DNA from: Chloroflexota bacterium
GTDB taxonomy: Bacteria > Chloroflexota > Dehalococcoidia > Dehalococcoidales > RBG-16-60-22
DNA length: 40,850 bases
Assembly: GCA_018829775.1 (NCBI GenBank)
Contig: JAHJTL010000013.1
Location: forward strand, 1-40,850
Direction: 5' to 3'
Shown here one piece after another: positions 5,807-27,266 of the stretch; position 1 is the stretch's first letter; each line of letters starts with the position of its first letter. The notes beneath the pieces are model-generated. The model was not told the origin of the DNA. It worked only from the letters and a program-made list of their open reading frames with translations, and ran no database searches. Made by a program: the position numbers and the translations under genes.

Positions 5807-6595
5807 GTGAGAATAATCGTGCCCATCAAGCAGGTCCCGGACATGAACCAGGTGAGGTTCGAGGTGGACAGGGGCAGGGTCGACCGCAGCTCCGCCGGTG
5901 TGGAAATAAATCCCTTCGACCTCAATGCGCTGGAGGCAGCGGTTCAAATAAAAGAGGACGCGGGTGGTACCGTTACTGCCATCAGCATGGGGCCGCACCG
6001 GGCGGAATCATCGCTGAGGGACGCGCTGGCCAGAGGGGCAGACGACGCCGTACTGCTTGAAGACCGGAAATTTGCCGGCGCCGATACGCTGGCCACATCA
6101 TACACCATTGCCTGCGCCATCAGGAAGCTTGGGGCATTTGACCTCATCCTCTGTGGCGAAAAAACGGTTGACGGAGATACCGGTCAGGTTGGGCCCGAGA
6201 TTGCCGAGCATTTGAACATACCGCATATCGCCTATGTATCCTGGCTGGAAGTGAGAGGCGGGACGATGGTCGCCCAGTGCGAAATGGGCGGACGTGCCTA
6301 CACCGTGGAGTCCGCTTTTCCGGTGCTGCTCACCATAACCAAGGATTTGAACATCCCGAGATTGCCCGGCTTCCGTGATAAAGCTAAAGCACGCCAGGTC
6401 GCGGTGGCAGTATGGGGCGCCAGAGAGCTTGCCAGCGTCGCCGATACCAGCAGGTACGGAGTGCGCGGGTCACCGACCAGGGTGCACAGGGTCATTATCC
6501 CTTCCGAGGAAAACAGAAAGGGGAAGATTTTTCGGAATGCAGTGGAGGAGGCAATCGATGAAATTGCCTCCGAGCTACTCAATCACCTGAACTAA
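5807..6595 (+). CDS. etfB: electron transfer flavoprotein beta subunit, bifurcating-group-like
   Basis: The 262-residue EtfB subunit forms the small half of an electron-transfer flavoprotein, binding AMP or, in bifurcating forms, FAD and NAD(H). The N-terminus (MRIIVPIKQVPD) and the ALEAAVQIKE segment are typical. The motif VDGDTGQVGPEIAE (121-134) is of the type found in electron-bifurcating Etf groups, not the DD...NQTG type of ordinary mitochondrial-like Etf. The start is a GTG with GGAG eight bases upstream. The etfA gene follows after 24 bases and an FAD-linked oxidase after that, so the three probably form one complex. Bifurcation is an inference from the motif. Confidence 0.93.
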   Translation: MRIIVPIKQVPDMNQVRFEVDRGRVDRSSAGVEINPFDLNALEAAVQIKEDAGGTVTAISMGPHRAESSLRDALARGADDAVLLEDRKFAGADTLATSYTIACAIRKLGAFDLILCGEKTVDGDTGQVGPEIAEHLNIPHIAYVSWLEVRGGTMVAQCEMGGRAYTVESAFPVLLTITKDLNIPRLPGFRDKAKARQVAVAVWGARELASVADTSRYGVRGSPTRVHRVIIPSEENRKGKIFRNAVEEAIDEIASELLNHLN

Positions 6596-6619
6596 GGAAT
6601 TTAATGCGGGAGATGCATC

Positions 6620-7600
6620 GTGAATTCGGATAAAGAGGTTATGGTTTTCGCCGAGCAGCAGGAAAGCGAAATCAACCCGATATCGTATGAGTTGCTGGGC
6701 AAAGGAAGAGAACTGGCCGATAAGCTGGGAGAACGCCTCTCCGGTGTTCTCTTCGGCGACAGGATAGCTGACGCCGCACCGGAACTTATCTATCACGGCG
6801 CAGACAGGGTATATCTGTACGACCACCCTACTTTTCACGAACTAGACTTGCTGAACTACAAGCATAATATGGTCAGGCTGGCAAGAGAGGTGAATCCGGA
6901 GATATTTATTTTGGGGGCGACTCACTGGGGGAGGTCGCTGGGGGCCAGGGTAGCGGCGGCACTTGGCACCGGTCTGACGGCGGACTGCACCGGCCTGGAT
7001 ATTGACCCAAACGGAAATTTCATTCAAATCAGGCCTGCTTTCAGCGGCAATGTCCTGGCCCATATCAGAACGAAAACAAGGCCCCAAATGGCCACGGTGC
7101 GGTATAAGGTCATGCGGAGTCTGTCGCGAGACGTAACCCGCAAGGGAGAAATAATCAGAAAAAATACGGAAATTATACCTTCTCTGCTCACCATAGCACG
7201 CAAGGAGAGGCGGAACGAGGTCAACATCGCTGATGCTGAAGTGATTATCTCCGGCGGTGCCGGGTTGAAAAAGGCAAAAGATTTCTCCCTGCTGGCAAAT
7301 CTGGCCGGGCTTCTGGGCGCAACCGTCGGCTCCAGCCGACCTCCGGTAGACAGCGGCTGGATACGCAAAGAGCATCAGGTGGGATTCAGCGGCAATACCG
7401 TCAAACCCAAGATTTATTTTGCCTGCGGTATTTCCGGCAGCTCACAGCATCTGGCCGGCATGAGAGAATCAGATGTCATCATCGCCATAAATACTGACCC
7501 CTCAGCCCCTATATTTAATATTGCCGACTACGGGATTGTCGGCGACCTTTATGAGGTAGTTCCGAAACTAATAGAAAAAATCAAGAGGTGCCGCGCATGA
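6620..7600 (+). CDS. etfA: electron transfer flavoprotein alpha subunit
   Basis: The 326-residue EtfA subunit carries the main FAD. The C-terminal FAD domain shows the family signature in order: GGAGLKKAKDFSLLANLAG (about 214-232), SRPPVDSGW, QVGFSG, YFACGISGSSQHLAGM and INTDPSAPIFNIADYGIVGD. It has no extra N-terminal ferredoxin domain, unlike the EtfA homologue (LctC) of the confurcating lactate dehydrogenase complex of Acetobacterium. The GTG start has GGGAG seven bases upstream. Its stop overlaps the ATG of the FAD oxidase (ATGA), so the two are translationally coupled, which favours a stoichiometric complex. Confidence 0.93.
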   Translation: MNSDKEVMVFAEQQESEINPISYELLGKGRELADKLGERLSGVLFGDRIADAAPELIYHGADRVYLYDHPTFHELDLLNYKHNMVRLAREVNPEIFILGATHWGRSLGARVAAALGTGLTADCTGLDIDPNGNFIQIRPAFSGNVLAHIRTKTRPQMATVRYKVMRSLSRDVTRKGEIIRKNTEIIPSLLTIARKERRNEVNIADAEVIISGGAGLKKAKDFSLLANLAGLLGATVGSSRPPVDSGWIRKEHQVGFSGNTVKPKIYFACGISGSSQHLAGMRESDVIIAINTDPSAPIFNIADYGIVGDLYEVVPKLIEKIKRCRA

Positions 7601-8967
7601 GTACAGTAGAGAAATTACAGGAGATTGTGGGCAGCGACTGGGTGGTCACGAACCGGGAGCAGATGGAGAGCTACCTTGCTGACGAAACGGCCGACGCTAC
7701 AAGGCCAAAACCGGCTGACAACGTGGTTCTGGTAAAGCCGGCGAGTGCCGAAGAGATATCTGCCATATTGAAAATGGCCAATGAGGAAAAGACCCCGGTC
7801 TTTATCAGGGGAGGTGGCACCGGGATATGCGGCGGTGCCGTGCCCATTGCCGATGGCATTCTTCTTTCTATGGAGAGACTGGACCGGATTGTGGAGGTGG
7901 ACAGGGACAACCTGATGGTTGTTGTCGATGCCGGCGTACCATATGGCAACATGCTGGAAGCGGTGGAAGAGGCCGGGCTGTTCTTCCCTCCTCACCCCGG
8001 TGCCGAGGGAGCGCATATTGGCGGGCTGGTCGCCTGTAACGCCGGAGGGGCAAGGGCCGTAAAATACGGCGTCATCCGCAACTTTGTCCGTGGGCTGGAA
8101 GTGGTGCTGCCGACCGGTGAAATAATCACCACCGGAGGCAAGCTGATGAAAAATAACCAGGGATTTGACCTGATGCACCTGCTCATCAACAGTAATGGCG
8201 CGCTGGGTGTGATAACCAAAGTCATCTTCCGTCTGTGTCCGAAGTTCAACAGCAGCGGCACCCTCGTCGTTTCCTACGACAGCCGCCATAAAGCCATCGA
8301 TACCGTTCCCCAGATATTGCAGAGCGGCATAATACCGCTGGCCATAGAGTACGTTGAGCGCGACGTCATCGAAAGTTCGGCCAGAGCGTTGAGTATGACC
8401 TGGCCGGCCACCAAAGGGCAGGCGTACCTGATTGTGATTCTGGCTGGCGATAGCGAGGACGAAGTTTACTCTCAGGGCGAACGGGTATCGGATATCTGTG
8501 AACGGAACGATGCGGTTGATATTTTGATTGCGGAAAGGCGGGAAGAACAGGCGAATATCCTCAAAATAAGAAGTGAAATCTATTTTTCATTAAAACCATC
8601 TGTCGCTGACGTTCTGGATATAACCGTACCACCGGCAAGCATCGGCGTGATGATGGACCGGGTGGACGAGATTGCCCGGCAGTACAATGTAAAAATCCCT
8701 GCCTATGGACACGCCGCCGATGGCAATCTCCATCCCCATCTTATGACGAAGCTGGTCGAAAAAGGCATACTGCGCGATGTGAAGCGAGCGATATACCGGG
8801 AAGCAATCAAGCTGGGCGGCGTTATCACCGGTGAACACGGGCTTGGGGTAATCAGGCTTGCCGACCTGGACCTCTGCCCTGATGGTAAGACCTGGGAGTT
8901 GATGCGCGGCATCAAGCGTGTTTTCGACCCCAATAATATTTTAAGCCCGGGCGTTGGGGTGCCCTAG
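7597..8967 (+). CDS. FAD-linked oxidase (GlcD/D-lactate dehydrogenase family)
   Basis: A 456-residue FAD-binding oxidase of the PCMH/VAO type. The N-terminal FAD domain has the P-x-S-x-E-E-I segment, the RGGGTGICGG pyrophosphate loop (about residues 70-79) and the HPGAEGAHIGGLVACNAGG block. The C-terminal cap shows YGHAADGNLHPH, the metal/substrate-binding histidines, and TGEHGLG. These are diagnostic of D-2-hydroxyacid dehydrogenases such as glycolate oxidase subunit GlcD and D-lactate dehydrogenase. Directly fused in expression to etfBA, it most likely passes substrate electrons to Etf. The ATG at 7597, overlapping the etfA stop and preceded by GAGG, is preferred to a GTG at 7588. Substrate (lactate, glycolate, other hydroxy acid) is unknown. 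Confidence 0.9.
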   Translation: MSTVEKLQEIVGSDWVVTNREQMESYLADETADATRPKPADNVVLVKPASAEEISAILKMANEEKTPVFIRGGGTGICGGAVPIADGILLSMERLDRIVEVDRDNLMVVVDAGVPYGNMLEAVEEAGLFFPPHPGAEGAHIGGLVACNAGGARAVKYGVIRNFVRGLEVVLPTGEIITTGGKLMKNNQGFDLMHLLINSNGALGVITKVIFRLCPKFNSSGTLVVSYDSRHKAIDTVPQILQSGIIPLAIEYVERDVIESSARALSMTWPATKGQAYLIVILAGDSEDEVYSQGERVSDICERNDAVDILIAERREEQANILKIRSEIYFSLKPSVADVLDITVPPASIGVMMDRVDEIARQYNVKIPAYGHAADGNLHPHLMTKLVEKGILRDVKRAIYREAIKLGGVITGEHGLGVIRLADLDLCPDGKTWELMRGIKRVFDPNNILSPGVGVP

Positions 8968-15664: not shown

Positions 15665-16885
15665 ATGTCTGATAAAAGCCATAAGATACGCTGCCAAGAG
15701 GTATGGAAAATCTTCGGGCCCAACCCGGAGAGCGTATTTGATTTAATCGAAAACGGTGCCTCCAAGCAGGAGCTTATGGAAAAGACTGGTCACGTTATCG
15801 CCATCCGGGATGTCTCCTTTGAAGTTCAGGAAAACGAAGTTTTCGTTGTTATGGGTCTTTCCGGAAGTGGCAAGTCCACACTGGCGCGCTGTATCAATCG
15901 CCTCATGGAACCGACCAGGGGTTCTATCTACATTGACGATACCGATATTGCCAAGATGAATGACCAGGAACTCAGGGAGCTGCGCCGCCATAAACTGAGC
16001 ATGGTTTTTCAGAACTTCGGCCTTCTCCCCCATCGTTCGGTTTTTGACAATGTCGCCTTCGGCCTGGAGGTGCGGGGAGAGAAAAAAGAGGCACGGTATA
16101 AAAAGTCTCAGGAGGCGATAGAACTGGTGGGCTTGAAAGGCTGGGAGAGGAGCCGCATCAATGAGCTCAGCGGGGGCATGCAGCAGCGGGTGGGCTTTGC
16201 TCGCGCCCTGGCGGTAGGACCAGAGATTCTGCTCATGGACGAGCCTTTCAGTGCCCTTGACCCGCTCATCCGCCGCCAGATGCAGGAAGAATTCATAAAT
16301 CTGCGCCAGCAGTTGAAGAAAACCGTGATTTTTATCACCCACGACCTTCTTGAGGCTCTCACCCTGGGCGACCGTGTCGCCATCATGCGGGATGGAGAGA
16401 TAGTCCAGCTGGGTACTCCCGTGGAAATTGTTAACAATCCGTCGGATGACTATGTACGCGAGTTCGTTAAAGATGTGCCTCGTGGTAAAGTGCTGCCGGT
16501 TCGCGATATCATGGAGGAACCTCTGGTAGTCATCACGGAAGAACAGCCGGTTGCGGCAGCCATCGGAGAAATGGAGAAGAAGGAAGTCGACTTTGCCTTC
16601 GTGGTGGATAGTACCGGCATATTCAAAGGTGCCTTAACCAAGGAGCATGCCATTGACACCAAGGATAACGGGTCGGTAAAAGCGGGCGAAATAGTCGAAC
16701 GGGAATGCCCCACTGCGCTGCCCAATGCGACCCTCGAGCACTGCCTGCAGCTGGTAGCGGAGTGTAACATCCCGGTGGCTGTTCTCGACGAGGCGCAGCG
16801 CTTGCAGGGGATGGTCACCAGAACGGCCATAATCCAGGCTACCGGTGGTAACGGCGCCCAGAACGGCTCCAATGGGAAACGCTAG
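15665..16885 (+). CDS. proV: glycine betaine/proline ABC transporter ATP-binding protein
   Basis: A 406-residue ATPase of the ProV/OpuAA type, energising uptake of glycine betaine, proline betaine or related quaternary amines at the inner face of the membrane. Walker A is GLSGSGKST (64-72), the Q-loop [14 protein letters not shown], the signature LSGGMQQR, Walker [13 protein letters not shown] and the switch His in ITHD. The C-terminal part (about 280-395) is a pair of CBS domains, which in OpuA sense ionic strength. The N-terminal [11 protein letters not shown] is typical of ProV. No ribosome-binding site is visible before the ATG; the leader is described separately. The permease and binding protein follow in the same direction. 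Confidence 0.93.
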
Positions 16886-16957
16886 CCTGTCAGAAGCCAA
16901 ATGCGGATGTTCGCTGTGCCTTCATTCATACACCAAGAGAGGAAAGGATAAAGCCTG

Positions 16958-17821
16958 ATGCTGGATTTCCCCAAGGAATGGGATTTTGGTTGGGAAGTAA
17001 TTAAATTCATAGACGGGGTGGTTGAATGGGTCGTGGTCAACTGGGACCCGTTTTTCTCGGCAATCAACAGCGGTGTTCTTCACATCCTGCTGCCCTTTGA
17101 AAGATTCCTGCTGCTGATTCCCTGGTGGGTATTTATCATATTAATTGGCTTCATCGCCTGGCGCGCTGCCGGCTGGAAATTCGGCATCATCGCGGTATCT
17201 TTCTTGATAGCGATGTCCTTTCTCGGCCTGTATGACCTGACCATGAGCACCCTTGCCATCGTTCTTACCGCCAGCCTGATATGCGTCATCCTGGGTCTAC
17301 CACTCGGGATAGCCGCAGCCAGAAATAATCGCTTTGACGAATTGCTCCGCCCGGTATTGGACGGGATGCAAACGCTCCCTAGCTTCGTTTACCTTATTCC
17401 CGCGCTCATGCTGTTCGGGCTGGGTAAAACACCGGCGGTTATGGCCACGACTATTTACGCCATTCCGCCCATCATACGCCTCACCAATCTGGGCATACGG
17501 CAGGCAGATGCCGCGGTGGTCGAGGCCGGCAGAGCCTTCGGCGCCACGGCCTCGCAGCTCCTGCGCAAAATTCAGATACCGCTTGCCATGCCGACCATAC
17601 TCGCCGGGCTAAATCAGACCATCATGATGGCACTGGCCATGGTCGTTATCGCCTCCATGATAGGTGCCAAGACGCTGGGGACAGAGGTCCTCAACGGTAT
17701 CGCCCGTCTTGAGGTCGGCCGGGGCTTCACTGGCGGCATCAGCATCGTATTCACCGCGATTATCCTGGACCGTATCAGCCAGGGATTTGCCAAGAAGGAA
17801 CGCAGAGTTATGACAAGATAG
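16958..17821 (+). CDS. proW: glycine betaine/proline ABC transporter permease
   Basis: A 287-residue integral membrane permease of the ProW/OpuAB type. After an amphipathic N-terminus there are about six hydrophobic segments, beginning near residues 45-62, 65-80, 88-115 and 135-160. The cytoplasmic coupling loop has the expected pattern EAGRAFGATASQLLRKIQIPLAMPTILAGLNQ (about 188-219). The PSFVYLIPALMLFGLGKTPAV stretch is typical of this subfamily. It starts 72 bases after the ATPase gene with GAGAGGAAAGGA upstream and forms the transmembrane path with ProV and ProX. Confidence 0.93.
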   Translation: MLDFPKEWDFGWEVIKFIDGVVEWVVVNWDPFFSAINSGVLHILLPFERFLLLIPWWVFIILIGFIAWRAAGWKFGIIAVSFLIAMSFLGLYDLTMSTLAIVLTASLICVILGLPLGIAAARNNRFDELLRPVLDGMQTLPSFVYLIPALMLFGLGKTPAVMATTIYAIPPIIRLTNLGIRQADAAVVEAGRAFGATASQLLRKIQIPLAMPTILAGLNQTIMMALAMVVIASMIGAKTLGTEVLNGIARLEVGRGFTGGISIVFTAIILDRISQGFAKKERRVMTR

Positions 17822-17871
17822 CACCAGCATCTCGGTAACAAATAGCCAAGATTACGGCAGAAAGGGGGTGA

Positions 17872-17935
17872 ATGAATTCAGAGATAAGCGATAAACGTTT
17901 TCGTTAACTGACTGGTTGCGCTCAAGCAACTTGAG
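17872..17935 (+). promoter_or_regulatory. leader of the substrate-binding protein gene: mini-ORF and alternative hairpins
   Basis: An 11-codon frame (17872-17907) follows a strong AAAGGGGGTG site. After it, two mutually exclusive hairpins overlap: GTTGC/GCAAC (15-base span 17915-17930) and CTCAAG/CTTGAG (17921-17935). They sit just before the AGGAGG of the binding-protein gene, so this intercistronic region may tune its expression, which is usually higher than that of the permease. No named element is recognised. Confidence 0.3.
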
Positions 17936-17956
17936 ATACCATAGTTAGGAGGGAAA

Positions 17957-18988
17957 ATGAAGAGAATCAATTCACATTTGAAACGAGGCATACTGGTTCT
18001 GGCCGTGTTGCTGCTCGTAGTTTCCATGGTGGTGGGCTGCGCCGGCCCCAAGGAGAAGCCGACCATCAAACTCGCTGATGCCCAGTGGGAGTCCCTCTGG
18101 ATCATCAACGCGGTCTTCGAATATATCTCGGAGAACGGCTACGGCTACCCGGTGGAGACCATTGAGATGACCACGCCCATCGCCGAACTGGCCCTGTCCA
18201 ACGGTGAGATAGACATCTGGGTGGAGCTCTGGGAGCAGAACTGGAAGGATAAATACGACGAGTACATCGCCGAGGGCAAAATCGAGAACATGGGACCTGT
18301 CTACGAGGGTGGCCCCCAGTTCTGGGTCATTCCGCAGTGGATGGCTGACGAGTACAACATAAAGACGGTCTTCGATATGAAGGACCACTGGGAGCTGGTG
18401 AAAGACCCCGAGGACCCGAACAAGGGCGCCTTCATCAGCTGTATCATCGGCTGGGAATGCGCCGAAATCAACGAGGTGAAGATGGAAGCCTACGGGCTCA
18501 CCGAGTACTACAACATCATCTCACCTGGCAGCTCCGGCGCCCTGGATGCCGCCCTCTTAGGCCCGCAGATGAAGAAAGAACCGGTTTTTGGTTACTACTG
18601 GGCACCTACAGCGCTCATGGGCGCGTATGACTGGTATGTCCTCGAAGAGCCCCCGTACAACGAGGCGATCTGGGAACAGATAACCGCCGCCAGAACTGAC
18701 CAGAGCCTGCGTCCCCTGTCAGAGGCCTGCGCCTACGAAACCCTTCCCACCAACAAGGGCATCAACCCACAGCTGCGCGATAAAGCGCCTGAGCTTGTCG
18801 ATGTCATGGATAAAATGGAGCTGGGCCTTGCGGCCATCAACAGGGTAGCCGCCTGGGCCCTGGAAAACGAGGTCCAGGAGTGGTCACAGGCCGCCGTCTA
18901 CTATCTGGAGAACTACGAAAGCACGTGGAAGACCTGGGTTACCGACGATGCCTACAAAAAGATAAAGGATGCATTGGCGCAACCATAG
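17957..18988 (+). CDS. proX: glycine betaine/proline ABC transporter substrate-binding lipoprotein
   Basis: A 343-residue OpuAC-type binding protein. It has a basic N-terminus, a hydrophobic signal and a lipobox VVGC (Cys28), so it is anchored outside the membrane. The mature part begins with IKLADAQWESLWIINAVF, then MTTPIAELALSNGEIDIWVELW, typical of the first lobe. Many Trp and Tyr residues (for example in PQFWVIPQWM and YYWAPTALMGAYDWY) could form the aromatic cage that binds quaternary ammonium groups. GGAGGG precedes the ATG. It ends the operon; a strong terminator lies 43 bases after the stop. The exact ligand (glycine betaine, proline betaine, choline, carnitine) cannot be told. Confidence 0.92.
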   Translation: MKRINSHLKRGILVLAVLLLVVSMVVGCAGPKEKPTIKLADAQWESLWIINAVFEYISENGYGYPVETIEMTTPIAELALSNGEIDIWVELWEQNWKDKYDEYIAEGKIENMGPVYEGGPQFWVIPQWMADEYNIKTVFDMKDHWELVKDPEDPNKGAFISCIIGWECAEINEVKMEAYGLTEYYNIISPGSSGALDAALLGPQMKKEPVFGYYWAPTALMGAYDWYVLEEPPYNEAIWEQITAARTDQSLRPLSEACAYETLPTNKGINPQLRDKAPELVDVMDKMELGLAAINRVAAWALENEVQEWSQAAVYYLENYESTWKTWVTDDAYKKIKDALAQP

Positions 18989-19031: not shown

Positions 19032-19059
19032 GGGGAGCCGATATCGGCTCCCCTTTCTT
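19032..19059 (+). terminator. rho-independent terminator of the transporter operon
   Basis: A perfect palindrome (GGGGAGCCGAT followed directly by ATCGGCTCCCC, 19032-19053) is followed by TTTCTT. It falls 43 bases after the proX stop. The base-paired tip can open to a four-base loop. Confidence 0.85.
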
Positions 19060-19103: not shown

Positions 19104-19112
19104 TGGTAAAAT
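19104..19112 (+). promoter_or_regulatory. candidate extended -10 for the amidohydrolase gene
   Basis: TGG-TAAAAT (-10 at 19107-19112) has the TGn extension, with no clear -35, about 48 bases before the ATG and just after the terminator. Confidence 0.25.
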
Positions 19113-19160: not shown

Positions 19161-20030
19161 ATGATAGTTGATGTACACACCCACGTGCCAACCCATGTTT
19201 CAGAGGTACCACCGGCAGAAGAAATCGTGAACAAACAGATGCGGCCGGATAAGCCGGTCAGGCTCACCACCACCCACCGTGATTTCTTCAAGGCAATGGA
19301 GCCGGTGGACCGGGTCATCTCCTTCGGCATCGCCATGCCACCGGACCGTCCCGCCGTTATCGGGGAAAAAGACGCGAAGAAGGCCAATGACGCTACAGCC
19401 GCACTGGTGGCTAAGGCACCGGAGAAAGTTATCGGCTTCATGTCTGTGTGGCCGGATGCGCCGGACGCAGTTGAGGAAATGGAGAGGGCCTACCACGAGC
19501 TCAAGCTGCGTGGACTGAAGCTGGGGCCAAACTATCAGAACTTCGAACCCCTGGGGCAAAACGCGCTTCGTGTCTATACCAAAGCCCAAGAATGGAACCT
19601 GCCCGTCCTGTTCCACCAGGGAACCTCTCCCATACGCGATGCACCCCTCCGCTATGCCCACCCGCTGGTGATGGACGAAATCGCCATTCGTTTTCCCGAC
19701 CTGCGCATCGTCATGGCCCATATCGGCCACCCCTGGCAAGAGGACTGTCTCATCGTGATACGGAAACATCCGCACGTATACGCCGATATTTCGGGGCGGT
19801 TTTATCGACCCTGGTCGTTCTACAACGGTATCCGTATGGCCTACGAATGGGGAGTGATGGATAAGCTGCTTTTGGGCTCTGATTATCCCATAACGATGCC
19901 GCAGGAGGCGATAGACGGGTTACGCAGCCTGAATGATTTTATTAAAAAACACCACCTCCCGGAGGTTCCACAGGAGCTATTGGAACAAATAATCCACCAG
20001 GATGCACTGGCGCTGCTGGGCCTGAACTGA
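19161..20030 (+). CDS. amidohydrolase-2 family (ACMSD-like) metal-dependent hydrolase/decarboxylase
   Basis: A 289-residue TIM-barrel metalloenzyme. The metal ligands are visible: DVHTH (Asp4, His6, His8), FHQG, MAHIGHPW and GSDYP with the catalytic Asp. This order is that of the amidohydrolase-2 family (ACMSD, gamma-resorcylate and 5-carboxyvanillate decarboxylases). Many members remove CO2 from aromatic acids without O2; others hydrolyse lactones or amides. No signal peptide, so cytoplasmic. It is followed after 84 bases by a corrinoid protein and a UroD-family methyltransferase, which suggests that it acts on a methoxylated or carboxylated aromatic compound; this is inference from context. 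Confidence 0.85.
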   Translation: MIVDVHTHVPTHVSEVPPAEEIVNKQMRPDKPVRLTTTHRDFFKAMEPVDRVISFGIAMPPDRPAVIGEKDAKKANDATAALVAKAPEKVIGFMSVWPDAPDAVEEMERAYHELKLRGLKLGPNYQNFEPLGQNALRVYTKAQEWNLPVLFHQGTSPIRDAPLRYAHPLVMDEIAIRFPDLRIVMAHIGHPWQEDCLIVIRKHPHVYADISGRFYRPWSFYNGIRMAYEWGVMDKLLLGSDYPITMPQEAIDGLRSLNDFIKKHHLPEVPQELLEQIIHQDALALLGLN

Positions 20031-20057
20031 GATTAAGCCGACTTGCTTGACGTTCTG

Positions 20058-20066
20058 TGATACAAT
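20058..20066 (+). promoter_or_regulatory. candidate extended -10 before the corrinoid protein
   Basis: TGA-TACAAT (20058-20066) has the extended form but no good -35 at the right distance. The same nine bases occur in the promoter at 34071-34079. Confidence 0.3.
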
Positions 20067-20114
20067 ATCAAGTACGGTAGAATTGAAAAATCATTGGAGG
20101 TGAAATGCTAAATC

Positions 20115-20750
20115 ATGTTTAATTTCGATGAACTAACCAATAGCATTGTTGATGGACAGGTTGCCAAAGCAGCCGAAGCAACGCAGAAAGCGCTGGCGGC
20201 ACAGGTGCCCGCCAAAGAGATACTGGACAAAGGCTTGTTGCCAGCGATGAACCGTGTGGGCAGCGACTTCGAAAGCGGGGAGATTTTCCTGCCCGAATTG
20301 CTTATGGCCGGCGATGCCATGAAAACTTCAATTGGACTGCTGAGACCAGAACTTTCAAGCCAAGGGGCTGCCTACGCCGGGAAGTACGCCATTGGCACGG
20401 TTGAGGGCGACCTCCATGACATCGGCAAGAATATCGTCGTTCTCATGCTTGAGGGAAACGGCTGGGAAGTCACCGACCTTGGCATAGATATCACCCCGGA
20501 CCGTTTCTGCGAGGAAATTAGAAAAGGAAACTATGATATCCTCGGGCTGTCCGCCCTGCTGACCTTCACCATGCCCAAGATGCCGGAAACGATAAATATC
20601 CTCAAGGAAGCCGGCCTAAGAGACAAAGTCAAGGTAATGGTAGGCGGCGCTCCACTGAATCAGGCCTTTGCCGACCAGATCGGGGCTGATGCCTTTGCCC
20701 GGGACGCCGTGGAAGCGGTGACAAAAGCAAAGGGCCTTTTAAATAAATAA
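20115..20750 (+). CDS. methyltransferase corrinoid protein (MtaC/MtbC-like)
   Basis: A 211-residue corrinoid protein of the methyltransferase-cognate family. Residues 1-85 are the helical cap (KGLLPAMNRVGSDFESGEIFLPELLMAGDAM). The B12 domain has GDLHDIGKN (98-106), with His101 as cobalt ligand, then SALLTFTMPKM and GGAPLNQAFADQIGAD. Such proteins carry a methyl group between a substrate methyltransferase and an acceptor methyltransferase. The GGAGG upstream is best placed for an ATG at 20105 that opens a five-codon frame (ending 20122) overlapping the real start; the real ATG is 14 bases from GGAGG. A UroD-family methyltransferase follows 15 bases after the stop. Confidence 0.92.
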   Translation: MFNFDELTNSIVDGQVAKAAEATQKALAAQVPAKEILDKGLLPAMNRVGSDFESGEIFLPELLMAGDAMKTSIGLLRPELSSQGAAYAGKYAIGTVEGDLHDIGKNIVVLMLEGNGWEVTDLGIDITPDRFCEEIRKGNYDILGLSALLTFTMPKMPETINILKEAGLRDKVKVMVGGAPLNQAFADQIGADAFARDAVEAVTKAKGLLNK

Positions 20751-20765
20751 TTGGGGGTAATAAAG

Positions 20766-21818
20766 ATGCAGACGCTTACCAATCGAGAGCGTGTGATGAA
20801 GGCGGTTCACCTCCAGGAGCCTGATACCGTCCCAACTTTTGAACTCGATATTGATGAGAGGATTATTGAGGCGCTCAAACCTGGCGCCACCTACGAGGAT
20901 TTTATCGAATACATGGATTTGGATGCCATTTGCTATCACGAGCTAAAAACGGACTCCTTTGAAGTACTGGATAAAGCCAAGGGCCTCGTCCGCGACCAGT
21001 GGGGCGCCATCAAGCAGTACTCCGGGGTATCACGTACCATCCCCATGGTTCTGGAGCCGGCAATCAAGTCCAAGGAAGACCTGGCCAAATACGTCCCTCC
21101 CGACCCCGACCTGCCAGGGCGGTTCAAGAGACTAGAAGAGGCGGTGAAAAGATTCAAGGGGAAGCGGGCTATTATGTCCGTGGTCAGACCCTTCGGCACC
21201 ATTTATGGCAGCCTCCGCAACCAGGATGAGCTGTTAAAGGACATGATAAGAGACCCCGAACTGGTGGAGGGTTTAAATGAAATTACCTCCAATTACTACA
21301 AACGTTATACCAAAAACCTGATAGATGTCGGGGCTGATATAATCATTGAAACCGCTGACTGGGCATTTACCAATGGCCCCATGGTGTCACCTAAGCATAC
21401 GGCCAGATTTCTCATCCCCGGCTTCAAAGAGGTCGTTGATTACTGCCACAGCCGGAACATACCGTGTCTCAAGCACACCGACGGGAACATCTGGAGCATC
21501 TTCGACCTTATTGTAGAGGCCGGCGCTGATGGCGTCCACCCGATCGACCCCGTAGCCGGCATGGACATTGGAGAAGCAAAGGAAAAGTACGGCGACAGGG
21601 TCTGTATCATGGGCAACGTTGACTGCGGCAGACTGCTGAGCTGGGGAAGTAAAGAGGAGGTCCGCGAAACGGTCAAGGACTGCATCCGCAAGGCGGGCAA
21701 GGGTGGAGGCTACATCTGCATGTCCGGCAATTCCATTCATGGCGCCGTTAACCCGGATAACTATGCCGAGATGATACGGGCCATAAGAGAGTATGGTAAA
21801 TACCCGCTTAACCTGTGA
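20766..21818 (+). CDS. uroporphyrinogen decarboxylase-family (MtaA/MtbA-like) methyltransferase
   Basis: A 350-residue protein of the UroD fold. The beginning LTNRERVMKAVHLQEPD is typical of the family. The C-terminal half has KHTDGNIW, HPIDPVAGMDIGEAKEKYGDRVCIMGNVDC and GGGYICMSGNSIHGAVNPDNY, where methylcobalamin:coenzyme M methyltransferases and O-demethylase methyltransferases place their zinc ligands. Instead of the HxCGN of MtaA the sequence has HTDGN, so the zinc site may differ. True UroD is unlikely beside a corrinoid protein and without haem genes. The ATG at 20766 after GGGGG is chosen over a TTG at 20751. It probably moves a methyl group to or from the corrinoid protein encoded just upstream. 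Confidence 0.85.
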   Translation: MQTLTNRERVMKAVHLQEPDTVPTFELDIDERIIEALKPGATYEDFIEYMDLDAICYHELKTDSFEVLDKAKGLVRDQWGAIKQYSGVSRTIPMVLEPAIKSKEDLAKYVPPDPDLPGRFKRLEEAVKRFKGKRAIMSVVRPFGTIYGSLRNQDELLKDMIRDPELVEGLNEITSNYYKRYTKNLIDVGADIIIETADWAFTNGPMVSPKHTARFLIPGFKEVVDYCHSRNIPCLKHTDGNIWSIFDLIVEAGADGVHPIDPVAGMDIGEAKEKYGDRVCIMGNVDCGRLLSWGSKEEVRETVKDCIRKAGKGGGYICMSGNSIHGAVNPDNYAEMIRAIREYGKYPLNL

Positions 21819-21991: not shown

Positions 21992-23134
21992 ATGAAGCTT
22001 TACGAGTTTGAAGCCGGCGACCTGTTTCGACAGGAAGGTATACCCGTCCCCGATTTCGCAGTCGTTGACAGCCCTGCGCAGGCACGTAAAGCAGCCGAAA
22101 AAATCGGGGTTCCCGTCGTGGTTAAAGCTCAGGTCCTGATCGGAGGACGCGGGCTGGCCGGGGGGGTTAAACCTGCGGAGTCTCCACAGCAGGCAGAGGA
22201 ATTTGCCCGGCGGATTCTGCAATCGTCCATCAGAGGGCTACCGGTAGACAGGGTAATGGTGGTGAAAAAAGCGGAAGTGGCCCGGGAGTTCTACCTGGGA
22301 GTGACCATAGATGGTGTCGCTGGCAGCCCGGTGGTTATCCTGAGCACCTCCGGCGGCGTTTCCATCGAGGAGACGGCCAGGACTCACCCTGAAATGGTTG
22401 TTCCCAGGCAGGTTTCCATTTCGGCCGGCCTGAGCCTGCCCGAAGCAAGGCAAATGGCTCAAAAAGCCGGGCTTACTGGCGATGAATCAGCCCGCATAGC
22501 CGAGATTCTGCACAGGCTCTACAATGTTTTTCGCAAATATGATGCCACCATTGCTGAAATCAATCCGCTGGTATGCACCGTAAAAGGTGATTACCTGGCC
22601 CTTGATGCCAGGATGGATATCGACGATTCCGGTCTGTTCCGTCATCCGGAGCTGCAAATATCACCCGAAGACCGCATTGCCAGCCTCCTGGAGAGGAAGG
22701 GGCGTCAGATCGGGGTAACCTACGTGGAACTGGACGGCGAGGTCGGCATCGTCTCCAGCGGGGCAGGCCTGGGCATGGCAACCATGGACATCATCGGGCG
22801 CAGATACCGCCCGGCCAACTTCCTGGAAACGGGAGGAGGCATCTCCGAAGAACTTCTTTACCGCGTCATGGAACTGGTTATGCAGAAGAAGGGTCTCAAG
22901 GCCGTGTTCCTCAACCTTCTCGCCGGAATCAACCCCATTCATGAAGGCGCCAGGGGAATCGTCCGTTTCCTTCAGGAGCACCCGACAAGCATCCCCATCG
23001 TGGCCAGAGCGCGAGGAAATCGGCAGGAGGAAATCTGGCAGATACTGAGAGAGGGAGGAGTTGAGGTGGTCACCGACGTGGCCACGGAAAAAAGTGTGGA
23101 ATACCTTTTCCGAAGACTGGAAGAAACAAGATGA
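21992..23134 (+). CDS. sucC: succinyl-CoA synthetase (ADP-forming) beta subunit
   Basis: A 380-residue ATP-grasp subunit (E. coli SucC 388). Early motifs are VVVKAQVLIGGRGLAGGVK (about 44-62), where the nucleotide binds. AEINPLV carries the Glu/Asn magnesium ligands, LDARMDIDDS follows, and the C-terminal part has GAGLGMATMDII and NFLETGGG, which hold the second phosphohistidine loop. It converts succinyl-CoA, ADP and phosphate into succinate, CoA and ATP. It overlaps the alpha subunit by four bases (ATGA). The ribosome-binding site is weak. Related malate- or citramalate-CoA ligases look similar, so succinate is the default reading. Confidence 0.9.
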   Translation: MKLYEFEAGDLFRQEGIPVPDFAVVDSPAQARKAAEKIGVPVVVKAQVLIGGRGLAGGVKPAESPQQAEEFARRILQSSIRGLPVDRVMVVKKAEVAREFYLGVTIDGVAGSPVVILSTSGGVSIEETARTHPEMVVPRQVSISAGLSLPEARQMAQKAGLTGDESARIAEILHRLYNVFRKYDATIAEINPLVCTVKGDYLALDARMDIDDSGLFRHPELQISPEDRIASLLERKGRQIGVTYVELDGEVGIVSSGAGLGMATMDIIGRRYRPANFLETGGGISEELLYRVMELVMQKKGLKAVFLNLLAGINPIHEGARGIVRFLQEHPTSIPIVARARGNRQEEIWQILREGGVEVVTDVATEKSVEYLFRRLEETR

Positions 23135-24000
23135 GCATCCTTTTGAATCGCGATACCAGGGTGCTGGTGCAGGGCATCACCGGTCGGGTGGGCCGGGCTC
23201 AGACAAAATGGATGCTGGAGTACGGGACGAATATCGTGGCCGGCGTGACTCCGGGGAAGGGCGGCGAGGAGGTGGAGGGCGTACCGGTTTATGATAGCGT
23301 CGCCCAGGCCGTTGCCGAGCGCGGAGCGGAGGCCTCCGTCTTTTTCGTACCGCCGGCAGCGGTTAAGGACGCCGCCTTTGAGACCATAGACGCTGGCGTC
23401 AGTCTTATTGTGGTGGTCACCGAGCACGTTCCGGTACACGATGCCATGGAGATAAAGGATTACGCTTCAGGACGCAACGTTCGGCTTCTGGGGCCAACCA
23501 GTCCCGGAATCATCACTCCGGGAGAGGCCAAGATGGGCATTATGCCCGGAAACATGTTCCAGCCCGGTCGAATCGGGGTCATTTCGAGGAGCGGTACACT
23601 CGCCTACGAGATATGTGTCGACCTGGCCGAATCTGGTTTGGGCCAGAGCACTGTTGTGGGTATGGGTGCCGACCCGGTGCCATTCACCGGCATGTCCGAA
23701 CTGCTGGCTCTTTTTGATACCGATCCAGCCACGGACCTTGTTGTCATCGTCGGCGAGGTGGGAGGCATGCAGGAGGAGCACGCTGCCCGGTTTATCGCCG
23801 ACCGTATGAAAAAGCCTGTGATAGCCTACATCGCCGGCCACAGCGTGCCCGAGGGAAAGCGCATGGGCCATGCTGGAGCCATCGTACAGGGCGACCGGGG
23901 CACGACAAAAAGTAAAATCAGCGCTTTTCAAAAAGCAGGTGTTGATGTGGCGGAATACCCGCTGGACGTGGTGAAACTGGTTCAGAACAGGCTGGGGTAA
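23131..24000 (+). CDS. sucD: succinyl-CoA synthetase (ADP-forming) alpha subunit
   Basis: A 289-residue CoA-binding subunit. GITGRVG (15-21) is the CoA-binding glycine loop, GPTSPGIITPGEAKMGIMPG (121-140) and SRSGTLAYE are conserved, and GHAGAI carries the active-site phosphohistidine His247. Length and motifs agree with E. coli SucD (289 residues). It is coupled to sucC. With the methylmalonyl-CoA mutase operon about 7 kb away it would conserve energy from the propionyl-CoA route. Confidence 0.93.
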   Translation: MSILLNRDTRVLVQGITGRVGRAQTKWMLEYGTNIVAGVTPGKGGEEVEGVPVYDSVAQAVAERGAEASVFFVPPAAVKDAAFETIDAGVSLIVVVTEHVPVHDAMEIKDYASGRNVRLLGPTSPGIITPGEAKMGIMPGNMFQPGRIGVISRSGTLAYEICVDLAESGLGQSTVVGMGADPVPFTGMSELLALFDTDPATDLVVIVGEVGGMQEEHAARFIADRMKKPVIAYIAGHSVPEGKRMGHAGAIVQGDRGTTKSKISAFQKAGVDVAEYPLDVVKLVQNRLG

Positions 24001-24486: not shown

Positions 24487-27207
24487 TTATTTCAGGCTGA
24501 TTCTGGCATCCACCACCCGGTATCCCTCCCCTTTCGCCATTACTTTCACCGGATTGAAGTCCAGCTCCGCAATCTGTGGAATATCCTCAACCATGGCGGA
24601 CAACCTGAGCAGCAAATCCTGCATTGCCTGGATATCGCTGGGCGGCGCCCCCCTGAAACCTTCGAACAGACTGGCCATTTTGATTGAACTGACCATTTCG
24701 CTGGCATCCAGCTCGGTGAGTGGATGCAGACGGAGGACGATATCCTTTAACAGCTCGGCCTGCACGCCGCCCAGGCCAAACATTATGAGCGGTCCGAACG
24801 TCGGGTCCTGCGTTACCCCGGCAATTATTTCAACGCCGCCCGTAATCATTTTCTGGATGGTTACACCTTCCATCTCAGATTCACGCCCGATGGCCGCCAG
24901 CTTATCTTTAATGGTATTAAATGCGGTTTTCACTTCATTTTTCGAATTGAGGTCCAATATCACACCACCCACGTCAGTCTTGTGCGTGATGGACGGCGAG
25001 TTTAATTTAACGACCACCGGAAAGCCTGCCTGCGCCGCGATGGCAGCTGCCTTATCCGCGCTCTTAGCGACCGATGTCTCAACAATACAAATGCCATAAC
25101 AATTTAACAGGTCCACTGTATCCTCTGCGGGAAGCCAGAACGGCCTCTGCTTATTCCGGCTCATTGCCGTTTCTATGATACGGCGTGCCTGTTCCCGTTT
25201 AATGCCCTTGATGCGGGGCACGATGCCTCTTGGCTTTTTCGTTAACTCGCGGTACTCAACCGCTTTGGCCAGCGCTGAGACAGCGTTTTCGGGGAAGGGA
25301 TAGCACGGCACAAAGCTGCCTGTCGTTCCCAATCTGGCTCTGAATCCCCGCTGCCCCATGAAGCAGGCGAGCAGAGGTTTCTTGCGCCGCTGATAAAGGG
25401 TGCTGACGCGTCGGATGGACTCTTCCACCAGCGATGAGTCTATGACCGCCGCAGGGACAAATACCGCCAGGACAGCATCGACATTATCATCCTCGGCCAG
25501 CACCCTCAGGGAACCTTCAAATTCCTTCGGGGTAACACTGCCGGTGAGGTCCAGTGGATTGCCAATCCTGATATCCCGTTTGATGAGCTGGTCGAGTTTC
25601 CCTGCCGTTTCAGAAGAAAGCTCGGAGAGGGTCAGCCCTTGCTGCTCCGAGGCATCGGCGGCCAGAATCCCCGGCCCACCGCCATTCGTCACGATGAACA
25701 GTCTTTTACCTTCAGGGAGCGGCTGGCTGGAAAGCAGCGTTGCCACGTCAAAAAGTTCCTGGATACTATCGACGCGAGTGATTCCTGCCTGGCGGAACAA
25801 AGCGTCCGAGACCACTTCGGGTGTCGCCAGCGCGCCGGTATGGGATGAGGCAGCGCGGGAGCCGACCAGCGTGGTCCCGCCTTTGACGATAACGATTGGC
25901 TTTTTGGCTGAAACACGTTTGGCGATACGGCTGAACCTGTGCGGATTACCAAACGACTCCAGGTAGAGCAGGATGACTCTCGTCGCCGGGTCATCTTCCC
26001 AGTACTGCAGCAGGTCATTGGAAGAGATATCGGCACGGTTGCCCACGCTGACAAAGTCGGAGATACCCATATTGAGGTCGTTCGCGTACTCCAGAATGAC
26101 CAGCCCCATGGCGCCACTCTGGGACAGAAAGGCGATATTGCCGCGGGGTGGATAGATGCGGGAAAAAGAGGCATTCAGTCTCACTTCAGGGTCGGTGGTG
26201 AGGATTCCCATGCAGTTGGGGCCCACCAGCCGCATACCGTGGCCCAGCGCCACATCACGCAGCTCCTCCTCACGGGCGGCTCCCTCCGGCCCCCTTTCTT
26301 TGAATCCATCGGTGATGACAATTATGGCACGAACACCCTTTCGCCCGCACTCGTCCGCCACTTTGGCGACAAACTGCGTAGGCACGATGATTATGGCCAG
26401 GTCCACTTCTCCCGGGACATCAAGTATGGAAGGATAGGCCTTCACCGCCATTATGGCATCCGCCTTCGGGTTCACCGGGTAGACAACGCCGGCGAATCCG
26501 CCTTCCATGATGTTCCGGAAGACCAGCTGCCCGATGCTGCCCGGTTGCCTGGAAGCGCCGACCACCGCGATTGAGCGCGGCGCCATAACGTTTCGTATTG
26601 AAGCGACCGTCGATAGGCGTTCCCTTTCCGCCTCTTTCCTTTCCACCCGCCGACTTCTGGCTATGGGAATGGTAAGGTGGTAGACACCGCCTCTGAGTTC
26701 GCTGTCAATGTGGAATCCGTAATCTTTGAGAACGGACATCATGCGTTCGTTCTCGGCGAGGACGTCGCCTTTAAAAAAGGCGATACCATTATCACGGGCA
26801 ATGTTAGCCAGCCACTCGATAAGCTTAGTGCCAATTCCCTTGCCGTGGTAGGCGTCCTCGATGGCGAAGGCAACTCTCGCCGAGCGCTTATCTGGAAGGC
26901 GGTAATAACGCCCGATGGCAACGATTTCCTTGCGCTGCTCTTTTTGCACCTCGCCAACCAGCGCAAAGGTGTTGTTATAATCCACGGTACAGAAGCGCAG
27001 GGCGTCCTCAGGTCCCATTTCGCCCGGGTCACGTTGAAAGCGAAAGTATTTGGTTTGCTGGCTTTGTCGCTGGAAAAAGGCAAGCCAGCGCTCGGTATCA
27101 TCCTGACGTATCGGTCTCAGCAGTATCCTTGAGCCATCTTTCAGAAGTACTTCAGTCTCGTACTGTGCTGGATACGTTGAACTTGTTGCCACCGTCATCT
27201 TAATCAC
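24487..27207 (-). CDS. GNAT acetyltransferase fused to ADP-forming acyl-CoA synthetase
   Basis: A 906-residue multidomain protein. First comes a GNAT acetyltransferase (about 25-185, acetyl-CoA loop YHGKGIGTKLI), then the CoA-binding domain (from about 205, APRSIAVVGASRQPGSIG), the succinyl-CoA-ligase-like domain (SQSGAMGLVILEYA; SSHTGALATPEVV) and a C-terminal ATP-grasp domain (SPSITHKTDVGGVILDL). Protein acetyltransferases of the PatZ type share these parts but place GNAT last and have usually lost the phospho-histidine. Here both His in SHTGAL and in THKTDVGG are kept, so the synthetase half may be active. It could make acyl-CoA reversibly with ADP/ATP and also be regulated by acetylation. 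The GTG at 27207, with GGGAG five bases upstream and a promoter at 27238-27266, is preferred; ATG 27198 is the alternative. Confidence 0.9.
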   Translation of the reverse strand: MIKMTVATSSTYPAQYETEVLLKDGSRILLRPIRQDDTERWLAFFQRQSQQTKYFRFQRDPGEMGPEDALRFCTVDYNNTFALVGEVQKEQRKEIVAIGRYYRLPDKRSARVAFAIEDAYHGKGIGTKLIEWLANIARDNGIAFFKGDVLAENERMMSVLKDYGFHIDSELRGGVYHLTIPIARSRRVERKEAERERLSTVASIRNVMAPRSIAVVGASRQPGSIGQLVFRNIMEGGFAGVVYPVNPKADAIMAVKAYPSILDVPGEVDLAIIIVPTQFVAKVADECGRKGVRAIIVITDGFKERGPEGAAREEELRDVALGHGMRLVGPNCMGILTTDPEVRLNASFSRIYPPRGNIAFLSQSGAMGLVILEYANDLNMGISDFVSVGNRADISSNDLLQYWEDDPATRVILLYLESFGNPHRFSRIAKRVSAKKPIVIVKGGTTLVGSRAASSHTGALATPEVVSDALFRQAGITRVDSIQELFDVATLLSSQPLPEGKRLFIVTNGGGPGILAADASEQQGLTLSELSSETAGKLDQLIKRDIRIGNPLDLTGSVTPKEFEGSLRVLAEDDNVDAVLAVFVPAAVIDSSLVEESIRRVSTLYQRRKKPLLACFMGQRGFRARLGTTGSFVPCYPFPENAVSALAKAVEYRELTKKPRGIVPRIKGIKREQARRIIETAMSRNKQRPFWLPAEDTVDLLNCYGICIVETSVAKSADKAAAIAAQAGFPVVVKLNSPSITHKTDVGGVILDLNSKNEVKTAFNTIKDKLAAIGRESEMEGVTIQKMITGGVEIIAGVTQDPTFGPLIMFGLGGVQAELLKDIVLRLHPLTELDASEMVSSIKMASLFEGFRGAPPSDIQAMQDLLLRLSAMVEDIPQIAELDFNPVKVMAKGEGYRVVDARISLK

Positions 27208-27237
27208 ACTATCTCCCGTTTCATGAACGACGTATAT

Positions 27238-27266
27238 ATCATAAATCAGTAAAGACAAGTAGTAAA
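27238..27266 (-). promoter_or_regulatory. candidate promoter of the acyl-CoA synthetase fusion gene
   Basis: On the minus strand TTTACT (27261-27266), 17 bases and TATGAT (27238-27243). It excludes a longer reading frame beginning at 27258. Confidence 0.4.

Follow-up and report, generated by a model that had tools for sequence, protein, structure and literature searches.

In a 40,850-nucleotide stretch of Chloroflexota DNA (the window), an amidohydrolase gene is followed by genes for a corrinoid protein and a UroD-family methyltransferase. This arrangement raises the question of whether the three genes form a demethylation module and, if so, which methylated compound the module would act on. 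The window corresponds to contig C13 in a genome of 2.16 Mb and 118 contigs, which has Dehalococcoidia metagenome-assembled genomes as close relatives. An earlier note on this DNA had proposed a demethylation module that lacked methyltransferase I (MT1) and had suggested methoxylated aromatics as its substrate. Our analysis supports a corrinoid methyl-transfer pair that is probably demethylating, but not a missing MT1, and the amidohydrolase has a weak claim to membership.

Gene content and transcription units

The three open reading frames were confirmed, all on the forward strand and in the families that the earlier note had named (Table 1). The corrinoid protein carries DLHDIG at residue 99 and, after it, SALL and GGAP, and the HTDGN reported for the methyltransferase is present and includes H242 and D244. 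UroD residue numbers (H242, D244, N327) are counted from the TTG at 20751, but translation more likely begins at the ATG at 20766, which a good ribosome-binding site (GGGGGTAATAAAG) precedes; the protein is thus 350-355 aa long.

Table 1. Features of the window and candidate partner genes on contig C82 of the same genome
Feature	Location	Strand	Remarks
ProV, ProW and ProX, ABC transporter of betaine/DMSP type	15665..18988	+	Upstream neighbour
Terminator-like hairpin	19032..19053	+	Perfect 22-base palindrome, then TTTCTT; between ProX and amidohydrolase
Promoter-like element TGNTANAAT	19104..19112	+	Ahead of amidohydrolase; 3/3 genomes aligned; consensus likeness only
Amidohydrolase (AmH)	19161..20030	+	289 aa; PF04909 Amidohydro_2, 134.6 bits
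Promoter-like element TGNTANAAT	20058..20066	+	Ahead of corrinoid gene; 3/3 genomes aligned; consensus likeness only
Corrinoid protein (Cor)	20115..20750	+	211 aa; PF02607 and PF02310 (B12-binding)
UroD-superfamily methyltransferase	20766..21818 (ORF from TTG 20751)	+	Candidate MT1; PF01208 URO-D, 122.9 bits
SucC and SucD genes	21992..24000	+	Downstream neighbours
RACo-type activase	L093:3226-5052 (C82)		Candidate activase
Pterin-binding methyl-THF:corrinoid methyltransferase	L093:5053-5847 (C82)		Candidate methyltransferase II (MT2); 324 bits, cut-off 259

The simplest reading of the locus is three adjacent units, namely the transporter, the amidohydrolase and the corrinoid-UroD pair, with read-through possible between the last two. 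The hairpin behind ProX has a fold z of -2.8 and is absent from the list produced by our general scan; hairpins occur at the matching position in the related loci L104 and L105. The transporter is thus probably a separate transcription unit. It has also been swapped in place among relatives: the window's cassette at 15665-18988 corresponds to L104:9964-13204 (-) and L105:5579-8822 (+), where ProX is 36-39% identical and the gene order is altered, with a flanking amidohydrolase that is 89-92% identical.

The opposite strand encodes a methylmalonyl-CoA mutase and its B12-binding subunit. At 24487-27258 (-), a GNAT acetyltransferase domain is fused ahead of an ADP-forming acyl-CoA synthetase, and this fusion is retained next to SucCD in L010, L011 and L012. 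Membership of SucCD in the module is unsupported: another SucC-like gene (41%) is present in the genome, and in L012 two extra genes lie between UroD and SucC.

The corrinoid-UroD pair

A tree built from 84 UroD rows places the window's protein in a clade of 19 rows (support 100/99). A corrinoid gene lies directly upstream in 16 of these rows, three end at a contig edge and none is without one, such that pairing is complete among the readable rows (16/16). The adjacent group of 40 rows comprises 38 without a corrinoid gene, one at a contig edge and one pair. One genome is counted twice in the tree (as L104 and L011), and loci at which a longer frame overlapped and displaced that of UroD are omitted, including L059, which is itself a corrinoid-UroD pair. 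The pair is a real unit, and its corrinoid protein scores nearest to the betaine and methylamine corrinoid families. At L014, a single run of genes encodes a UroD of this type and an HxCG-type UroD together with a corrinoid protein and an activase.

What the UroD protein does within this unit is suggested by its superfamily and its site residues, by which it is best read as MT1 itself. The absence of MT1 claimed by the earlier note was an interpretation and not a fact of the sequence, since the UroD superfamily itself includes the characterised MT1s MtvB, OdmB, VdmB, MtoB and CdmB, as listed in the excerpted part of PMC13222342. The same note had flagged HTDGN, in place of HxCGN, as unusual. 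The motif does differ: in a profile alignment, HICGN of MtaA (4ay7) pairs with HTDGN and the later MtaA Cys pairs with N327, so that both MtaA Cys ligands are replaced, by D244 and N327. The His-Cys-Cys zinc site of the MtaA/CmuA family (TIGR01463) is thereby absent, with H242, D244 and N327 in its place. It is, however, not an oddity, because a ligand change of this kind has been reported for the superfamily's O-methyl enzymes, in which, as the excerpt of PMC10418091 describes them, the Cys ligands are swapped for a carboxylate or for non-coordinating residues, unlike in the His-Cys-Cys thiol enzymes. With both Cys replaced, HTDGN would be the sign of a non-thiol enzyme, and HxD in place of HxC is, in these proteins, more plausibly a reflection of the donor's chemistry than of a defective site.

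HTDGN is nearly invariant among the UroD relatives, a result that is partly circular because KHTDGNIW served as a search seed. Six paralogues in the same genome, found without seeds of this type, carry H-x-D-G in four cases, DSDG in one and HICG in one; the paralogue on C82 exceeds the MtaA/CmuA cut-off and carries HICGR. Many distant HTDGN relatives have no corrinoid gene nearby, so the motif alone is no proof of corrinoid methyl transfer. The predicted structure of the window's protein is confident (pLDDT 93.9) and matches MtaA (4ay8) with a Z score of 32.7, with a score of about 32 also against UroD. A plasmid search for a named CmuA reference returned distant UroD-like matches only.

The window encodes neither an MT2 nor an activase, but candidates for both were found elsewhere in the genome. 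On C82 they lie side by side, with another UroD alongside, and a second RACo gene is present on C8. With MT2 and activase encoded in trans, a complete system is possible, and we infer that the C82 proteins serve the window's pair. In such a system, the corrinoid and UroD proteins would together be the half of a corrinoid demethylase that is specific to the substrate. The UroD protein, as MT1, would bind the methylated substrate at its H-D-N site and hand the methyl group to the cob(I)alamin that the corrinoid protein carries. The methyl-THF:corrinoid methyltransferase of C82, whose gene is present, could be shared with this pair and would pass the methyl group on to tetrahydrofolate, and the RACo-type activase encoded beside it would rescue oxidised cobalt.

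Comparison with known systems fits this arrangement in part. Like MtvB, OdmB, VdmB, MtoB and CdmB, the window's protein has the UroD fold, a partner corrinoid protein and no Cys ligands, and a pterin-binding MT2 and a RACo-type activase are found in the genome. Unlike in those systems, MT2 and activase lie outside the cluster, and the match to CdmB is weak (35 bits by profile). The coenzyme M methyltransferases MtaA, MtbA and MtsA, and the Mlp proteins, share the fold and also have genes that adjoin those of corrinoid proteins; the window's protein departs from MtaA, MtbA and MtsA in having H-D-N for His-Cys-Cys, and it reaches 82.6 bits where the curated cut-off of TIGR01463 is 235.4. With moderate confidence, we regard the pair as an MT1 with its corrinoid protein, belonging to a clade that has an oxygen-type site and is as yet uncharacterised. 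The open-licence literature that we searched yielded no biochemistry on any clade member, no paper on the clade and no description of an amidohydrolase-corrinoid-UroD module.

The amidohydrolase

The amidohydrolase conserves H6, H8, H152, H187 and D241, which we take from the family to be its metal-site residues. It shares these residues and its fold with the ACMSD, dihydroxybenzoate decarboxylase and lactonase group of PF04909; its sequence match to ACMSD is weak (E 2e-4, over residues 76-156). The model is poor (pLDDT 65.7), and on it dihydroxybenzoate and 5-carboxyvanillate decarboxylases (Z 22-24) match about as well as lactonases and other hydrolases (Z 20-24).

Close orthologues occur in five of the 156 genomes of the order, four of them in the window's genus and one (G085) in another. 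The order amidohydrolase-corrinoid-UroD is intact in the window and in G079. In G082 the amidohydrolase and corrinoid genes are together and UroD begins a different contig; in G078 the amidohydrolase is on one contig end and the pair on another. Gene order here is conserved across many other genes as well, such that its conservation within the genus is weak evidence on its own. Outside the genus, none of 13 corrinoid-UroD pairs has an amidohydrolase match in the surrounding sequence analysed (tblastn, 1e-8; L013, L015-L023, L059, L061 and L092, the last via contig C61), several of these contigs being short. Co-occurrence with the pair thus holds in one genus, and outside it the finding is the one that the earlier note had itself named as counting against its proposal. 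In G097, which we take from matching identities to be the genome of L013, the UroD orthologue (74%) is accompanied by TRAP and phosphotriesterase-like genes in place of the amidohydrolase. Across 31 genomes of the family, lists of PF04909 and corrinoid genes matched by eye placed the two within 3 kb only at this same locus, in G000, G079 and G082. The wider amidohydrolase family has a match at 1e-30 in 29 of the 393 genomes of the class, and blastp found no corrinoid-system genes in 26 regions around such matches, some of them shorter than 4 kb.

The best hint of a role in corrinoid demethylation comes from G085. There, the orthologue (78%) has an ATC_hydrolase-domain gene ahead of it and, after a gap of 31 bases, an MttB-family gene (PF06253, 251 bits), one of three MttB matches in that genome. 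At an assumed density of about one gene per kilobase, we put the probability of finding MttB in this position by chance at ~0.5%, and that of finding any corrinoid-system gene there at ~4%. This adjacency suggests, without proving, that the amidohydrolase takes part in corrinoid demethylation. The separate promoter-like elements, together with the 13 pairs outside the genus, argue against its being a fixed part of the module. On balance, the chance that it belongs to the module is close to even, and it may be a recruited neighbour, rather than a core component, that hydrolyses or decarboxylates the substrate or product.

Two further observations concern these gene families. The three-gene row in G085 (L106:1001-4178, -), in which the MttB is free of pyrrolysine, has an N-carbamoyl-amino-acid-hydrolase-like gene nearby, as judged by eye. 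In Spirochaetes, proteins of ~540-564 aa whose C-terminal half is amidohydrolase-2-like (L067:16528-18222 and L072:15669-17300) are encoded downstream of UroD genes of the HTDGN type, at a distance of 6 kb.

Candidate substrates and competing readings

The neighbours of the other clade pairs offer a view of possible substrates. Among these neighbours are enolase-superfamily enzymes (L015, L016, L061), Ldh_2 and short-chain dehydrogenases (L019, L022, L023, L092) and TRAP transporters (L013, L018). L013 also has a phosphotriesterase-like enzyme, and a LarA-like protein was recognised by eye in L021. The survey covered 45 hand-picked neighbours, three of which came from L095, a locus without a UroD pair. 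For UroD proteins without a corrinoid gene, 68 of 92 nearest neighbours (24 were dropped by hand) had no shared theme. The neighbourhoods of the pairs suggest substrates among hydroxy or sugar acids. Given that the site type favours oxygen over thiol, an O-methylated small acid would be the likeliest substrate class, and we favour an O-methylated acid over aromatics or betaines.

The upstream transporter invites a different proposal, in which the substrate of the UroD protein is a quaternary ammonium or sulfonium compound of betaine-like type, for example DMSP, delivered by ProVWX, and the amidohydrolase handles substrate or product. ProX matches DMSP-bound RnDmpX (7yle) with an E value of 8e-25. 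In the alignment, it retains the four cage Trp, Tyr200 and Thr64, which the excerpt of PMC10030565 gives as ligand-site residues of RnDmpX, and has Glu113 replaced by Gln and Ala153 by Glu. The cage is kept in the diverged ProX of L104 (39% identical), whose adjoining amidohydrolase is 92% identical to the window's. Such residues speak for an onium compound as substrate of the transporter, but only weakly as substrate of the UroD protein. The best NCBIfam model of the corrinoid protein is glycine-betaine MtgC, although at 206.9 bits it is far under the 370 cut-off. Quaternary-amine systems of the MttB superfamily (MtgBC, MtqC and others) resemble this locus in having a related corrinoid protein and a betaine-type transporter nearby, and the MttB gene next to the amidohydrolase orthologue in G085 adds a link to them; they differ in that the window's MT1 is from another superfamily. 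Onium demethylation is otherwise the task of MttB-family MT1s: the six members with an identified substrate in the excerpt of PMC12155760 are the known quaternary-amine MT1s, and none is of UroD type. The window's own genome contains no MttB-type methyltransferase (PF06253). Betaine-type ABC transporters, moreover, commonly serve osmoprotection. The terminator-like hairpin sets the cassette apart in all three genomes viewed, the cassette is missing at this spot in G078 (L107) and the H-D-N site points to oxygen, so that onium demethylation by the UroD protein, the boldest of the alternatives, seems unlikely. With the hairpin in between and the cassette exchanged or absent in relatives, we set the transporter aside as part of the module and use it only as a pointer to the onium reading.

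A methoxylated-aromatic O-demethylase, with the amidohydrolase as an aromatic-acid decarboxylase, was the reading of the earlier note, and we consider it improbable. Aryl O-demethylases are among the UroD-type MT1s in the excerpt of PMC13222342, and the structural matches of the amidohydrolase include the two decarboxylases. The equal fit of lactonases and other hydrolases to the same poor model detracts from this, the neighbours of other pairs indicate hydroxy or sugar acids, and no aromatic-degradation genes were found near the locus; aromatics thus gained no specific support. It is about as doubtful that the UroD protein is instead an MT2, or a UroD-fold enzyme outside corrinoid chemistry, with the amidohydrolase and transporter as chance neighbours. 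By profile, MtaA, an MT2, is indeed the closest of the solved methyltransferases (66 bits, against 35 bits for the MT1 CdmB), and most distant relatives lack a nearby corrinoid gene. Against this stand the replacement of both Cys ligands required for a thiol acceptor, the low MtaA/CmuA score, the THF-type MT2 candidate and true MtaA-type paralogue encoded elsewhere in the genome, and the complete pairing with corrinoid genes inside the clade.

Returning to the pair as MT1 and corrinoid protein, a broader and more speculative proposal, to which we give only a small chance, is that the corrinoid-paired KHTDGN clade is an undescribed set of MT1s for aliphatic methyl donors, whether these are O-methylated acids (hydroxy or sugar acids) or onium compounds resembling betaine, and that every member is linked to uptake and breakdown genes of its own. 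The amidohydrolase would then prepare the substrate or process the product, and would have been paired a second time, in another genus, with an MT1 of MttB type. If so, Dehalococcoidia of anoxic sediments would gain a methyl-group route that is covered by no known enzyme. Demethylation of aliphatic methyl ethers or osmolytes by this clade would put a name to a missing first step of methyl-group use in uncultured sediment bacteria, and UroD-type MT1s would reach past aromatic ethers and chloromethane.

Methyltransferases of a further type are encoded in G000. Characterised MtmB proteins carry pyrrolysine. On contig C19, two tandem MtmB-family genes (L095:4485-5870 and 5913-7301, both -; PF05369, 285 and 307 bits) have full-length frames with no in-frame stop codon, and are therefore without pyrrolysine. 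They adjoin a corrinoid gene at 7316-7969 (-), with enolase-superfamily, phosphotriesterase-like and DHDPS-like genes among the other neighbours. The excerpt of PMC11650866 mentions mtm genes for Chloroflexota metagenome-assembled genomes.
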